Below, piece by piece: positions 2,249 through 8,842 of a DNA stretch of 20,108 nt. The translations under genes and the position numbers were made by a program. Within the stretch, counting starts at the first letter, position 1, and each line of letters opens with the position of its first letter. Source of the stretch: a virus; IMG/VR virus record IMGVR_UViG_3300037247_000224, positions 1 through 20,108 of that record; one strand, given 5' to 3'. The notes under the pieces are model-generated. The model saw only the letters and a program-made list of their open reading frames with translations. It made no database searches and had not been told where the DNA came from.

Positions 2249-3762
2249 TGGGCCTTCTGACGAAGCTGACAGCGCAGACGTTCCCGAAACCACAGGATGA
2301 TTGGAGCCAATGGGGGGTCGGGGCGAGCTGGGCCACACAGGCGGGTGTCAACGTGGACGCCGATACTGCTCTCCGGTACTCGGCTGTCTATGCCTGCACA
2401 AAGGTGTTGGCGGAGGGTGTGGCGGTTCTGCCGCTCATTACCTACCGGCGCCGACCCGATGGCGGGAAGGAACGGGTGAGGGGACAGACACGCGGTTTGG
2501 GCGTACCGCCGGAACTCCTCCATGATGACCCGAATCGTTGGCAGACATCGTTTGAGTGGCGGGAGATGTCACAGGGGCACCTGACTTTACGGGGCAACGC
2601 CTACTCCGAGATGATTGCCGGCCCACGAGGGTTCGTGGACGAGCTCGTGCCGCTGCACCCGGATCGCATCAAGGTATACCTTCTGAGCAATGGTGACCTG
2701 TTGTATAAATACAGGGAGCCTGATAGCAACGAACGGGATATAGAGTGGGATCGGATGTTTCATCTGCGGGGCCTGTCGAGCAACGGCCTGACTGGGCTCT
2801 CCGTTGTGTCGCTGGCCCGTGACGCTATCGGCAAGGGTCTAGCGATTGAGGGCCACGGAGCACGCCTGTTTTCGCAGGGCACGCTGGCGAAGGGGGTCAT
2901 TACGAGGCCAACTGGATTGAGCGAAACTGCGGCGAAACGGCTGAAAGCATCGTGGCAAGAATCACAGACTGGCTTGGAGAACGCGCACAAGGTAGCTGTG
3001 CTTGACGAGGGGATGGGCTGGAAGCAGATCGGGATGACATCGAAGGACGCGCAGTTCCTGGAGTGGGGCGAGTTCTCGGTCAAGGACATCGCTCGCTGGT
3101 TCCGAGTGCCGCCTCATATGATCGGCATGCTGTCGGAGGCGACCTTCTCCAATATCGAAAAGCAGTCGATTGAGTTTGTCGTCTACACCCTCATGCCGTG
3201 GCTCACACGCTGGGAGCAACGGATCAGTAAGGACTTGATCCTGGATTCGCAGACGTTCTTCGCTGAGTTCTTGGTGGCGGCGCTACTGCGTGGCGATACC
3301 AAAGAGCGGTACGAGGCCTATGGTCACGCTCGGCAGTGGGGCTGGCTTTCGGTCAATGACATCCGCCGTTTCGAGAACCTGAACCCGATAGCGGGCGGCG
3401 ACATCTACCTACAGCCGACCAACATGGTGCCGGCTGCGACGGGGCAGATGGCCCGCATGAGCCTTATGGCGCGGGAGGCGGCGGCGCGGGTTGTGCGGCG
3501 TGAGATGAGCGCTCTGGGCCGGGCGGCGAAACGTCACGCCGACGACACCGAGGGCTGGCAGGCGGCGGTGTGCGAGTTCTACGCGGGCCACGCCGAGTTC
3601 GTGGCGCAAGCGGTGAGCGTGGACAGTGAACGAGCTGAGCAGTACGTCAGGACGCAGCGAGAACTAGTGTTGGATCGGGGCGTGGGCGTGGTAGAGGATT
3701 TCGAGGACACGAGCACGGAAGCGCTTATAAATCTGGCGATGGGAGAGAGGAGCGAATCATGA
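2248..3762 (+). CDS. Portal protein, HK97 family
   Basis: Forms the dodecameric ring at one capsid vertex through which DNA enters and leaves, and docks the terminase and the head-tail connector. Family signatures are visible in order: ALRYSAVYACTKVLAEGVAVLPL (about residues 41-63, split here only by reading), TLRGNAYSEMI near 112, the MFHLRGLSSNGLTGLS segment near 170-185, and WFRVPPHMIGMLSEATFSNIE near 285-305, which is typical of the stem and crown of HK97-type portals. Length 504 aa is on the long side for the family, with an extra charged C-terminal helical tail. The start overlaps the preceding small gene by one base, and the stop overlaps the protease start (ATGA). Identification is strong. 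Confidence 0.93.
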   Translation: MGLLTKLTAQTFPKPQDDWSQWGVGASWATQAGVNVDADTALRYSAVYACTKVLAEGVAVLPLITYRRRPDGGKERVRGQTRGLGVPPELLHDDPNRWQTSFEWREMSQGHLTLRGNAYSEMIAGPRGFVDELVPLHPDRIKVYLLSNGDLLYKYREPDSNERDIEWDRMFHLRGLSSNGLTGLSVVSLARDAIGKGLAIEGHGARLFSQGTLAKGVITRPTGLSETAAKRLKASWQESQTGLENAHKVAVLDEGMGWKQIGMTSKDAQFLEWGEFSVKDIARWFRVPPHMIGMLSEATFSNIEKQSIEFVVYTLMPWLTRWEQRISKDLILDSQTFFAEFLVAALLRGDTKERYEAYGHARQWGWLSVNDIRRFENLNPIAGGDIYLQPTNMVPAATGQMARMSLMAREAAARVVRREMSALGRAAKRHADDTEGWQAAVCEFYAGHAEFVAQAVSVDSERAEQYVRTQRELVLDRGVGVVEDFEDTSTEALINLAMGERSES

Positions 3763-4727
3763 CGCACGGACACATTCTGGATGCGGTGTTCAATACGCCG
3801 TGGCTGATACACCGGGAATCACCGGAGTGGCAGGCCATTCAGCTAATCGCTCGCATGAGGGCGCGGGGCGAGCGGTTTTCCGCAGAGGAGATCAAGGAGC
3901 GTATCGGGGCGGGACCTGGACGGTCGGCGCGGAAGGAAGGCGCCATCGCCGTGCTGTCTCTCCAGGGACCCATTTCCCAGTATGCGAACCTGATGACGCA
4001 AGTGAGCGGCGGCACATCCACGGAAGAATTCGGCGCGTTGTTCCGTGCGGTCGTGGCGGAGCCTGGCGTTAAGGCTGTCGTCATCAATGTTAATTCGCCG
4101 GGTGGTTCGGTGTTCGGTGTGCAAGAGTTGGCGGCGGAGATATTTCAGGCTCGGGGCGTGAAGCCGATTATCGCAGTGGCGAATAGCATGATGGCGAGCG
4201 CTGCGTACTGGATCGGCTCGGCGGCGGACGAGGTGGTGGTCACCCCCGGAGGGATGGCGGGATCTGTCGGCGTAGTGCTGGAACACATCGACATTTCGGA
4301 ACTGGAGAAGAAGGAGGGCGTCAAGACGACGCTGATTTCGGCAGGCAAGGGCAAGACGATGGGAAACCCGTTTGAGCCCCTGTCGGATGATGATCGGGAC
4401 GAGTTGCAGGCTGTGGTGGATGAGGTGTATGGGCGGTTCGTGTCGTCGGTCGCAAAGAACCGCGGCGTCTCTGCGTCGACGATGAGGAACACCTTCCAGG
4501 CTAAGTTCGTATCGGCGAAGGAAGCGGTGGAGCTCGGCATGGCAGATCGGGTGGGGACGCTGCGGGACACGCTGAAGCGCTTGGGTGCGTCGGACGCGGC
4601 GTTCATGCCGCCACGGCCGACAACCCCGGACGTCTCTGATGCGGATGCCAGCCCCCCCGAATCTGAGTCGCAGGGCCCCAGCCTGGACACGCGGCGCCGC
4701 CGGCTGCGGCTGTTGGAGAAGTCGTAG
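3759..4727 (+). CDS. Head-maturation protease, S49 (SppA-like) family
   Basis: Protease expected to cleave scaffold or capsid N-termini inside the procapsid before packaging. The 322 aa protein shows the S49 fold signatures: VVINVNSPGG (107-116), the nucleophile Ser147 in MMASAAYWIGSAAD, a GGMAGSVGVV turn (164-173), and the general-base Lys199 in AGKGKTMGNPFEPLSDDDR. The Ser-Lys spacing of 52 residues fits short archaeal and phage SppA enzymes. Residues 1-60 are an extra charged N-terminus and 285-322 a proline- and acid-rich tail ending in basic residues. No signal peptide or membrane helix is seen, as expected for an enzyme acting in the cytoplasmic procapsid. It is coupled to the portal by a 4 nt overlap. 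Confidence 0.93.
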   Translation: MTHGHILDAVFNTPWLIHRESPEWQAIQLIARMRARGERFSAEEIKERIGAGPGRSARKEGAIAVLSLQGPISQYANLMTQVSGGTSTEEFGALFRAVVAEPGVKAVVINVNSPGGSVFGVQELAAEIFQARGVKPIIAVANSMMASAAYWIGSAADEVVVTPGGMAGSVGVVLEHIDISELEKKEGVKTTLISAGKGKTMGNPFEPLSDDDRDELQAVVDEVYGRFVSSVAKNRGVSASTMRNTFQAKFVSAKEAVELGMADRVGTLRDTLKRLGASDAAFMPPRPTTPDVSDADASPPESESQGPSLDTRRRRLRLLEKS

Positions 4728-5226: not shown

Positions 5227-5255
5227 TTGACACCTTAACCGTATAGGCGCATAAT
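5227..5255 (+). promoter_or_regulatory. Sigma70-type promoter of the capsid block
   Basis: A perfect -35 box TTGACA (5227-5232), a 17 nt spacer and a -10 box CATAAT (5250-5255, one mismatch to consensus). The expected start of transcription is near 5262. It is the best promoter match I see in the window and points at the major capsid gene, although a terminator lies between them. It would give the capsid block transcription independent of the upstream packaging genes. Confidence 0.8.
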
Positions 5256-5259
5256 CAGC

Positions 5260-5272
5260 ACAACTGAATACG
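5260..5272 (+). repeat. 13-mer shared by both structured leaders, copy 1
   Basis: The sequence ACAACTGAATACG lies at the predicted transcription start of the capsid leader. An identical copy occurs at 12337-12349 in the other non-coding spacer. I saw no third copy in the window. Confidence 0.75.
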
Positions 5273-5402
5273 AACGTGGTGCTAGGTGGTGGAAGGCTCC
5301 GACGAGACCGGAACCCACCTGAGCAAGACGGGTAAACCGCGCACCCAAAGGTAGAGCGCGTAGCCGTCAAAACGCTTAACCGGCGTTTTGGGCGGCCTTT
5401 TT
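5262..5402 (+). ncRNA. Structured leader RNA ending in its own terminator
   Basis: The stretch between the predicted transcription start and the terminator U-tract is about 140 nt with no convincing ribosome site or reading frame. It has several nested helices: outer AGGTGG (5284-5289) with CCACCT (5315-5320) enclosing TCCG (5298-5301) with CGGA (5309-5312); CGCGC (5338-5342) with GCGCG (5356-5360) enclosing ACC-CAAA-GGT; then the terminator stem. It could be a free-standing phage small RNA, the aptamer-like half of a riboswitch or attenuator for the capsid gene, or both. It does not match a tRNA or any riboswitch class I can recognise. Structure is read by eye; no folding energy was computed. 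Confidence 0.55.
5363..5402 (+). terminator. Intrinsic terminator upstream of the capsid gene
   Basis: The left arm 5363-5375 (GCCGTCAAAACGC) pairs with 5383-5396 (GCGTTTTGGGCGGC) as a 13-pair stem with one G-U wobble and one bulged G, closing a 7 nt loop. CTTTTT follows immediately (5397-5402). This is a good rho-independent terminator. It is odd because it lies between the promoter and the gene the promoter appears to serve, so capsid expression must depend on read-through, antitermination or upstream transcription. Confidence 0.8.
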
Positions 5403-5438
5403 CGTCTACCCCAAACGTCGGACCGAAAGGGGTAGACG
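5403..5438 (+). promoter_or_regulatory. Hairpin sequestering the capsid ribosome binding site
   Basis: A perfect 10 bp inverted repeat: CGTCTACCCC (5403-5412) and GGGGTAGACG (5429-5438), with a 16 nt loop. The capsid Shine-Dalgarno sequence AAAGGGG (5426-5432) lies partly in the right arm, and the GTG start (5439) directly follows. The stem can extend: CTTTTT (5397-5402) pairs with GAAAAG (5441-5446), leaving two bases of the start codon bulged. The left side of the extension is the U-tract of the preceding terminator. This layout suggests translational control of the capsid gene. Confidence 0.7.
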
Positions 5439-6791
5439 GTGAAAAGCAGATACAACGTACTGCTACAGGAGAAGGCGGATCTCATTGCGGAAGCTCAAGC
5501 GATCTTCGAGGAGGCTGCCGCCCACGAGAGCGAGGAAGACGGTCAGCCGGTCAAGGGGCGTGACCTAACCGACGCAGAGAAGAAGCGGGACGACGAGATC
5601 CAGGCCGGCCTTGAGGCAACCACCGATGAACTCGCACGCCTGACCCGCCAGCGGGAGCGCGAGGTCGGCACCGAGGCCGTCAAGGAAGTCATCGATAACG
5701 CCCCAGTGGCGAAGGCGCTGCCCACGCCGTTCAGCCAAGAGAGTCGGCCCTGGCAGCGGGGCTTCGGCGAGCAGCTCGCGGCCATTGCCAGGGCGTATAG
5801 TAACCCGTCTGCGGGGCCGGACAATCGCCTTATGGAGATCATGGCGGCGACAGGCATGAGTGAGGGCGTCGGGAGTGAAGGTGGCTTCCTTGTGCAGACC
5901 GACTTCACTGCGGAGCTAATGCGCGAAGTCTACGAGACGGGCGTACTGGCAAGCCGCACCGACAGGACGCCGATCGGGGCCAATTCCAATGGTCTCAAGG
6001 TCAACGCTATTGACGAGACCAGCCGGGCTGATGGCAGCCGCCAGGGTGGCATTCAGGCATATTGGGCGGCTGAGGCGGGTACACTCACGAAGTCCAAGCC
6101 GACGTTCCGGCACATGGAGCTTACCCTTCAAAAGCTCATCGGCCTCTACTACGCCACCGACGAACTCCTGATGGACACAGTTGCGCTGGGCGCGGAGATC
6201 ACGTCGCTCTTTTCAGAAGAGTTCGGCTTCAAGGTCGATGACGCGATCTACCGTGGTGGCGGCGCGGGGCTACCGTTAGGTGTCCTGGGTCACGCGGGAA
6301 CGGTGAGCGTGGCGAAGGAGGCAGGTCAGCCGAACACGACGATCGTCAAGGAGAACATCGAGAACATGTACGCCCGCATCCGGGCGCGCTCGCTCGTGAG
6401 GGCTGAGTGGTTCATCAACCAGGACTGCTGGCCGCAGCTCTTCCAGCTTTCGCAGGTGGTAGGGGTCGGTGGCGTGCCGGTGTTCATAAACGCCAACATG
6501 AGCAACGCCCCGTTCGGAACCCTGCTGGGGCGCCCGATCAACCCCATTGAGCAGTGCGCCACGCTGGGGACGGTCGGCGACATCATGTTCGCCGACTTCA
6601 ACGCCTACAAGATGATCGAAAAGGGCGGCATCGAAGCCGCGTCTTCGATCCATGTCCAGTTCCTCACGGACGAGATGACCTTCCGCTTCACCCTGCGGAC
6701 GGACGGCCAGCCCAAGCGGAATGCACCCCTGACGCCGTTCAAGGGCACCAAGACTCAATCCAGCTTCATCACCCTGGCTAGCAGGCCGTAG
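5439..6791 (+). CDS. Major capsid protein, HK97 fold
   Basis: Shell subunit of the icosahedral head. Residues 1-95 form a charged, coiled-coil region like the HK97 delta (scaffolding) domain, probably removed by the S49 protease. The fold proper starts near residue 110. Hallmarks are EGGFLVQTDFTAELMREV (147-164), IQAYWAAEAGTLTKSKPTF (205-223) with the following strand and helix TLQKLIGLYYATDELLMD (229-246), and GRPINPIEQCATLGTVGDIMF followed by ADFNAYKMIEKGG near the end. Length 450 aa is normal with an attached delta domain. The start is GTG at 5439 with AAAGGGG 6 nt upstream; that site lies inside the hairpin described separately. No scaffold gene is obvious, fitting a fused delta domain. 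Confidence 0.95.
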   Translation: MKSRYNVLLQEKADLIAEAQAIFEEAAAHESEEDGQPVKGRDLTDAEKKRDDEIQAGLEATTDELARLTRQREREVGTEAVKEVIDNAPVAKALPTPFSQESRPWQRGFGEQLAAIARAYSNPSAGPDNRLMEIMAATGMSEGVGSEGGFLVQTDFTAELMREVYETGVLASRTDRTPIGANSNGLKVNAIDETSRADGSRQGGIQAYWAAEAGTLTKSKPTFRHMELTLQKLIGLYYATDELLMDTVALGAEITSLFSEEFGFKVDDAIYRGGGAGLPLGVLGHAGTVSVAKEAGQPNTTIVKENIENMYARIRARSLVRAEWFINQDCWPQLFQLSQVVGVGGVPVFINANMSNAPFGTLLGRPINPIEQCATLGTVGDIMFADFNAYKMIEKGGIEAASSIHVQFLTDEMTFRFTLRTDGQPKRNAPLTPFKGTKTQSSFITLASRP

Positions 6792-8047: not shown

Positions 8048-8842
8048 ATGGCGACGCTGATAAAGACGCACCAATATCCGTCATCGTCCCTGAACGAGAT
8101 CATGGCGGTGCTGGGGACGACGAAGGCGACGCTGTGGCCGTTTCTTGAAAGCACGGGGGTTGTTATCGGCGCGGTCGGGGCGGGGCCCCGCCTGATACCG
8201 TCCGAGACGGCGGCGGCGGCGGAAGCGCTGGAGGATGATTTCGCGCCCGTGAAGTTCGCTTCGGGGCTGCACTCCTACTACTTCAGCAACCTTGAAGACC
8301 AGCATCTAGCGGTCGGTGCGGACAACGCCAACTTCCATTTTGATGGTGACGCGGCTTTTAGTGTAGGCGCGTGGATTCAGCCCCAGGACATCACCACCGT
8401 TGGGCTGATGGCGCTCTATGATTCTGCCGGCGCTGCGGAAGAGTGGGCGTGGCGGCTGGACGGGAGCAGCAAGCTCGAACTGGAGCTGCACGACGCTTCG
8501 GCTTCGGCCAAAGAGGTGGGGGCGTCTGACACCGCTCTCGTTCAAGGCCAGTGGGCGTTCGTTGTCTCAGCGTATGACGGCACGGCGGCTACACCCGAGA
8601 TCCTGCACTACATCAACGGTGCTGTGGATGGCGACGGTGCTACCACAGAGACCGGGGCCTATGTGGGGATGGAGGACAAGTCCACGCCACTAACTATTGG
8701 CTGCACAGGCGTGACGGCCCTTCCTACGGAGGAATATACCGGCCGTATCGCGTTGCCGTTCATCACGGGCAAGCAACTGACGGCGGCGAACATTTTACTG
8801 CTGTACAACCTAACCCGGCCATTGGTGGGGATCATCTCGTGA
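8048..8842 (+). CDS. Concanavalin/LamG-like domain protein in the head module
   Basis: A 264 aa protein. Residues 1-60 form a short N-terminal part, perhaps a virion anchor. Residues 67-255 match the LamG (Laminin_G_3-like) jelly-roll pattern: YYFSNLEDQHLAVGADNANF, FSVGAWIQPQDI (104-115), WRLDGSSKLELELHDAS, LVQGQWAFVVSAYDG (164-178), LHYINGAVDG, and TGRIALPFITGKQLTAANILLLYN (231-254). Such domains usually bind glycans or act as passive spacers on virions. Finding one between capsid and connector genes suggests a head-surface decoration rather than a tail fibre. The start ATG (8048) is 4 nt after the previous stop with only a weak ribosome site, so translation is probably coupled. The fold is a confident guess; the ligand is unknown. 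Confidence 0.72.
   Translation: MATLIKTHQYPSSSLNEIMAVLGTTKATLWPFLESTGVVIGAVGAGPRLIPSETAAAAEALEDDFAPVKFASGLHSYYFSNLEDQHLAVGADNANFHFDGDAAFSVGAWIQPQDITTVGLMALYDSAGAAEEWAWRLDGSSKLELELHDASASAKEVGASDTALVQGQWAFVVSAYDGTAATPEILHYINGAVDGDGATTETGAYVGMEDKSTPLTIGCTGVTALPTEEYTGRIALPFITGKQLTAANILLLYNLTRPLVGIIS

Follow-up and report, generated by a model that had tools for sequence, protein, structure and literature searches.

The major capsid gene of an uncultured tailed phage is preceded by a leader of some 140 nt, in which a conserved, covarying hairpin domain and a predicted intrinsic terminator share a strand and exclude each other. We consider it very likely that this leader is a real and so far undescribed RNA switch on capsid production. 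The reading we favor, with a probability of about 0.6, is that the capsid operon is under a conditional transcription attenuator, opened by a trans-acting factor. The parts of the leader, their order, both structures, their conservation and covariation, their mutual exclusion and the concerted change of two hairpin loops are shown by computation; the conditional control is inferred. The whole stretch of DNA that was analyzed, referred to as the window, is a 20-kb fragment (20,108 nt) from an IMG/VR virus record.

Organization of the capsid leader

The window carries terminase, portal, protease, capsid and tail genes. The gene upstream of the leader encodes the head maturation protease (3759–4727, + strand; phrog_53, E 3e-91), a protease-type cluster that is common to most contigs bearing the element. 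The gene taken as regulated encodes the major capsid protein with an HK97 fold (5439–6791, + strand, GTG start at 5439), and is identified by the profiles Phage_capsid (PF05065, E 1e-38) and major head protein (phrog_10, E 4e-37). From the end of the protease gene at 4727 to the GTG at 5439, the order is promoter, structured RNA, terminator and SD hairpin. Among the head-tail genes, a protein with a laminin-G/concanavalin-like domain is encoded at 8048–8842 (PF13385, E 3e-12), and is possibly a capsid decoration protein.

All leader elements lie on the + strand. The promoter (5227–5255) is of the sigma70 type, with TTGACA (5227–5232) and CATAAT (5250–5255) separated by 17 nt and 11 of 12 positions matching. 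It is the sole promoter-like site in 2.5 kb, where shuffles are expected to yield 0.5. Transcription is inferred to start near 5262, in the absence of transcript data. The RNA spanning 5255–5450 folds with −77.7 kcal/mol (z = −3.5), a value equalled by 1 of 200 shuffles. Domain 1 (5284–5320), which is present in folds of the window, is formed by an outer stem S1 (AGGUGG, 5284–5289, paired with CCACCU, 5315–5320), an internal loop and the hairpin H1 (GG-CUC-CGAC-GAG-A-CC, 5295–5309). H1 consists of two base pairs, one bulged nucleotide on the 3' side, three base pairs and a loop closed by a C-G pair. Domain 2 (5327–5368), the putative antiterminator, belongs to the minimum-energy fold of the nascent RNA 5262–5368, and comprises P3 (GACGG, 5327–5331, with CCGUC, 5364–5368), P4 (CGCGC, 5338–5342, with GCGCG, 5356–5360) and the hairpin H2 (ACC, 5343–5345, loop CAAA, 5346–5349, and GGU, 5350–5352). 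The terminator T (5363–5402) has a stem at 5363–5396 and a U-run (TTTTT) at 5398–5402. The SD-sequestering hairpin (5403–5438) pairs CGUCUACCCC (5403–5412) with GGGGUAGACG (5429–5438) and adjoins the GTG start.

A preliminary description, made from sequence alone, had claimed a promoter, about 140 nt of nested helices, a terminator ending at 5402 and a hairpin starting at 5403. All of these held with correct coordinates, and the nested helices are now resolved into two domains, the second of which excludes the terminator. Its claim that the leader lacks a good reading frame also held, as no + strand ORF of at least 60 aa was found there. A conserved leader peptide was not found among 17 leaders, in which short ORFs vary in position and sequence; this mark of a ribosome-mediated attenuator of the trp type is thus missing.

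Taken by itself, the window is weak evidence, because shuffles also yield promoter and terminator sites of this sort; two terminators were found in the scanned stretch against 1.6 expected in shuffles. The significance of the leader rests on its relatives, where the order and the covarying structure are conserved.

Conservation, covariation and strand exchange

A search with the capsid protein yielded 36 viral loci and 4 genome loci, several of which show the same arrangement before the capsid gene as the window, and nhmmer matched the leader to that of L002 (E 7e-7). A gene-blind motif scan of 2.9 million viral contigs, with a promoter followed by GGCUC-nnnn-GAGWCCnGA as the query, returned 13 stretches, all of which proved on inspection to be leaders of this kind before capsid-type genes. 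Two patterns without a promoter gave the same set and three chance matches. Among the pattern matches, L101–L103 were rejected as chance, with neither promoter nor capsid setting and apparently inside genes, and L209 and L212 were rejected with no such leader around the match.

Homologous leaders in the same position (protease–promoter–RNA–terminator–SD hairpin–HK97-fold capsid) are thus known from about 18 distinct uncultured phage contigs, namely the window, L002 (with L001 as a partial copy), L003, L004, L005, L042, L043, L045, L046/L047, L048, L049/L052, L051, L063, L066, L067, L069, L132 and L210. The exact −35 element TTGACA occurs at the same place in L002, L003, L004, L005, L063, L066 and L069, all found via capsid homology and not via the promoter, as well as in L210, found via a domain-2 pattern; variants are TTGACG in L132 and TTGATT in L067. 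The spacing from promoter to H1 is narrow among the members. SD hairpins comparable to that of the window are present in about 11 relatives, and are weak or absent in L004, L067, L069 and L048. Each phage contig searched has one credible copy of the element, located only before the capsid gene.

The element precedes capsid genes of two distant lineages. One is the lineage of the window; the other is ~49% identical to the capsids of mycobacteriophage Charlie and Arthrobacter phage Leona. The element is not universal, since comparable leaders are missing from most other capsid relatives. The cultured relatives Dagobah, ppBdUSDA122-1, Caulobacter W2, Leona, Charlie, Lton, Polka and Javan630 lack it, with protease-capsid gaps of at most ~100 nt, and a nucleotide similarity search with the leader in 50,697 phage genomes gave chance matches only. 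The lack of any member among the cultured phages checked would explain why the leader has remained undescribed. In a Nitrospinota MAG contig (L040, JADFGI010000288.1), the encoded capsid is 62% identical to that of the window over residues 207–449; the contig begins inside the capsid gene, so that the leader region is missing, and the match is only a weak hint at a Nitrospinota host.

Sixteen leaders were aligned by hand (alignment A3). Pairing is maintained in 92.4% of the cells, compared with 67.3% in shuffles, and double changes occur in 19 of 22 pairs. The covariation score is 0.545 against 0.156 after shuffling, with none of 500 shuffles as high, and 79 double-change cells are counted against 27 in shuffles. 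In slid controls, in which one side was moved by 1–3 columns, pairing falls to 30–45%. Double changes were recorded in all four pairs counted in S1, in all five pairs of H1, where they are compensatory and 100% of the cells are paired, and in all eight pairs of the P4/H2 helix. These figures are flattering, because the alignment was built by hand to match the structure, and the counts are raised by rows that are related to each other. RNAalifold, run unsupervised on a MAFFT alignment, recovers domain 1 (S1/H1), five of whose nine pairs show double changes. The covariance model R1 finds its training members, all but L063, as well as two leaders on which it was not trained, L132 (E 1e-4 in 486 kb) and L210 (E 5e-5 in 39 kb). 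When single nascent RNAs are folded without constraints, H1 and H2 appear in most members. A covariance search before HK97-fold capsid genes, as proposed in the preliminary description, was thus run and passed, and the refuting outcome it had named, no conservation or covariation, is excluded by the relatives.

The 3' strands of P4 and P3 together supply the 5' arm of T, and T and domain 2 are therefore mutually exclusive. The 3' strand of P3 lies within the terminator stem in 18 of 18 members and that of P4 in 17 of 18, the exception being the window, in which T takes the P3 strand only (5364–5368). Upon folding, the nascent RNA of the window (5262–5368) forms domains 1 and 2; when it is extended to 5402, P3 dissolves and T forms. 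In most members, the unconstrained nascent RNA adopts domain 2. In the window, T and domain 2 differ little in estimated energy (−15.4 and −18.1 kcal/mol, respectively), and in most relatives T is the stronger structure. L042 and L046 have only a poor U-run at T. The exchange of a strand between P3 and T, which is shown by folding, is what defines an antiterminator/terminator attenuator; termination itself is inferred. Two marks of this class are present: a promoter, a leader and an intrinsic terminator before the gene, in an order kept in relatives, and a conserved, covarying helix that excludes the terminator. The earlier claim of an attenuator-like leader is thus well supported, and the conditional read-through and the start near 5262 remain inferences, as had been said at the time. 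The antiterminator and the shared, co-varying hairpin loops, which together supply the mechanism, had not been noticed.

Concerted loops and the putative partner

The loops of H1 and H2 within one leader are more alike than expected by chance (permutation p = 1e-4, 17 leaders; p = 0.011 for tetraloops alone), in a test that is not corrected for the kinship of the leaders. The loop CGAGA occurs in both hairpins of L063 and of L210, L066 has CGCGA and CGAGA, and in L004 the CUC-CCAA-GAG hairpin is present in three copies rather than two (1690–1955), all with the CCAA loop. In the window, the two loops are unlike (CGAC and CAAA) and a self-repeat test is not significant (p = 0.42). The divergent leader of L057 contains a duplicated 32-nt hairpin, the second copy of which extends into the terminator arm; more weakly, L007 has another duplicated hairpin motif with the second copy reaching the terminator arm. 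The CGAGA class occupies two separate positions in the capsid tree, which requires either two concerted switches or an exchange of leaders. Loops that are alike and change together point to one sequence-specific partner that binds both hairpins. A single loop-reading partner is, by inference, the best explanation of the concerted loops.

Three further explanations bear on the same data, and we regard each of them as very unlikely. In the first, the leader is a small-molecule riboswitch with domains 1 and 2 as the aptamer and T as the expression platform. The layout (aptamer, antiterminator, terminator and sequestered SD) is riboswitch-like, and the guanidine-II riboswitch has tandem hairpins with like loops. 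However, a ligand pocket would be invariant, whereas these loops change together in both type and length, and the element does not precede metabolic or transport genes. Rfam 15, riboswitches included, gave nothing above the gathering threshold for the window and 12 relatives, and no consistent weak match.

In the second, the capsid protein tunes its own transcription by binding to H1/H2, either as free protein or through its cleaved N-terminal delta domain. The position of the element, always directly before the capsid gene and once per contig, is in favor of such autogenous feedback, and RNA operators on coat genes are known in RNA phages. Against it, the same H1 sequence precedes two deeply separated capsid lineages, and closely related capsids have different loop classes (L005 versus L063).

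In the third, there is no regulation, and a leaky terminator reduces capsid transcription by a constant amount, setting a fixed level, or frees a small RNA like the lambda 6S RNA. Promoter and T alone would yield a short RNA of ~140 nt, and no transcript data exist. This explanation leaves both the paired loops and a conserved, covarying domain 2 that competes with T unexplained.

In the attenuator reading that we prefer, the strong sigma70 promoter would start the RNA, and domain 1 (H1) and domain 2 (P3/P4/H2) would fold first. By default, the polymerase would go on to make the other arm of T, which would open P3 and, in most relatives, also P4, and transcription would stop ~140 nt from its start. 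A trans-acting factor would bind the look-alike hairpins H1 and H2 together and keep domain 2 closed, so that T is blocked and transcription enters the capsid gene, the translation of which would then be set by the SD hairpin. Termination at T, its conditional release and the late timing are inferred, as there are no expression data. The partner is inferred to be one protein, most probably encoded by the phage and produced late; the factor has not been found.

No candidate regulator emerged from an all-against-all BLASTP of the element contigs, as the proteins they have in common fall into structural-type clusters. A Pfam search of the G002 proteins returned HTH_3, methylases and a helicase, and no RNA-binding antiterminator. 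The ANTAR domain (PF03861) matches none of 12 partial phage contigs, and a host could supply one. The absence of a regulator means little, because the contigs are fragments; the partner may be encoded outside them or be supplied by the host.

A phage particle requires hundreds of capsid subunits, the production of which has to be delayed. Known late switches act at promoters, through sigma factors, or via DNA-loaded antiterminators such as Q. If our reading is correct, the RNA switch is located on the capsid gene itself. The 140-nt leader constitutes a defined target for finding the missing factor, and the differing loop classes are ready-made specificity swaps for asking whether one factor reads both hairpins.

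Relation to known systems and to other capsid leaders

No description of such a leader was found in the open-access literature searched. Judged by how it would work, and with conditional control inferred, the leader is a new family within a known kind of control, terminator/antiterminator attenuation. By analogy, the closest known layout is that of the ANTAR targets, the dual-hairpin antiterminators of the eut, nasF and amiE leaders, which have hexaloops with A1 and G4 (PMC3369931). Both systems have a pair of small hairpins whose terminal loops resemble each other, and the second hairpin extends to the 5' arm of an intrinsic terminator; two binding surfaces are thus available for a dimer. By contrast, the capsid leaders have YRWM tetraloops closed by a C-G pair (or CGAGA), H1 is set within an outer stem and an internal loop, H2 is placed inside P3/P4, and the target is a phage capsid gene on contigs, themselves fragments, without an ANTAR protein. 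No member shows A1/G4 hexaloops, and in these defining loops the leaders do not fit ANTAR target RNAs.

The put RNA of phage HK022 acts without factors and serves early operons (PMC9378689). In layout only, the capsid leader is similar, being a phage RNA of ~70–80 nt directly behind a promoter with two bulged stem-loop domains. A factor-free antiterminator of this type, in which both hairpin domains bind the emerging polymerase, which then ignores T and later terminators, so that T stops unmodified polymerases only, is an unlikely alternative, yet less so than the three above. It is supported by the match to putL (two stem-loop domains, ~75 nt, right behind the promoter; PMC9378689) and by the failure to find a common phage regulator, and it also accounts for the narrow promoter-to-H1 spacing. 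On the other hand, put is not described as sharing strands with a terminator, whereas the shared strands are kept in every member here, and the concerted change of two loops fits a loop-reading partner better than a conserved polymerase surface.

As in the RAT of BglG/SacY, the antiterminator helix of the attenuator that we favor shares a strand with the adjacent terminator; RAT is a single ~30-nt hairpin, whereas the capsid leader has two domains with like loops. The lambda PR'-tR' region with Q works in a similar manner, with a constitutive promoter, a short RNA, a terminator and late genes that depend on antitermination. Q acts via DNA near the promoter, whereas the conserved signal of the capsid leader is in the RNA, and the leader is positioned inside the head operon, before the capsid gene. 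A bolder reading, which at present we would sooner doubt than endorse, is a new class of phage-encoded, loop-reading antiterminator proteins that recognize the twin hairpins of capsid leaders, where each protein and the RNA loops would have co-evolved into specificities private to each phage (YRWM, CGAGA, CCAA, L057 and L007 types). If true, it would play, at the RNA level and for the head operon, the part of lambda Q.

Several features of individual loci were also recorded. In L005 (L050), L210 and L046 (L122, 1183–2646, − strand), the capsid frame opens with an extra hydrophobic, membrane-like N-terminal stretch that precedes the coiled-coil delta domain, which is unusual for an HK97-fold capsid. 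L067 has a short ORF rich in Thr, Asp, Glu and Pro (MAYDPEPKPDDETTTT...) between the leader (2620–2696) and the capsid start near 2887. Upstream of 2842 in L056, four tandem small hairpin repeats (GGAGATAGA..AGCTATCAGG), with no obvious terminator in the stretch, lie directly before a related capsid gene. Divergent capsid leaders with a promoter and a terminator are located upstream of L057 2096, L007 4001, L068 1199 and L006/L035 4001, and that of L068 repeats GTCACGCG.
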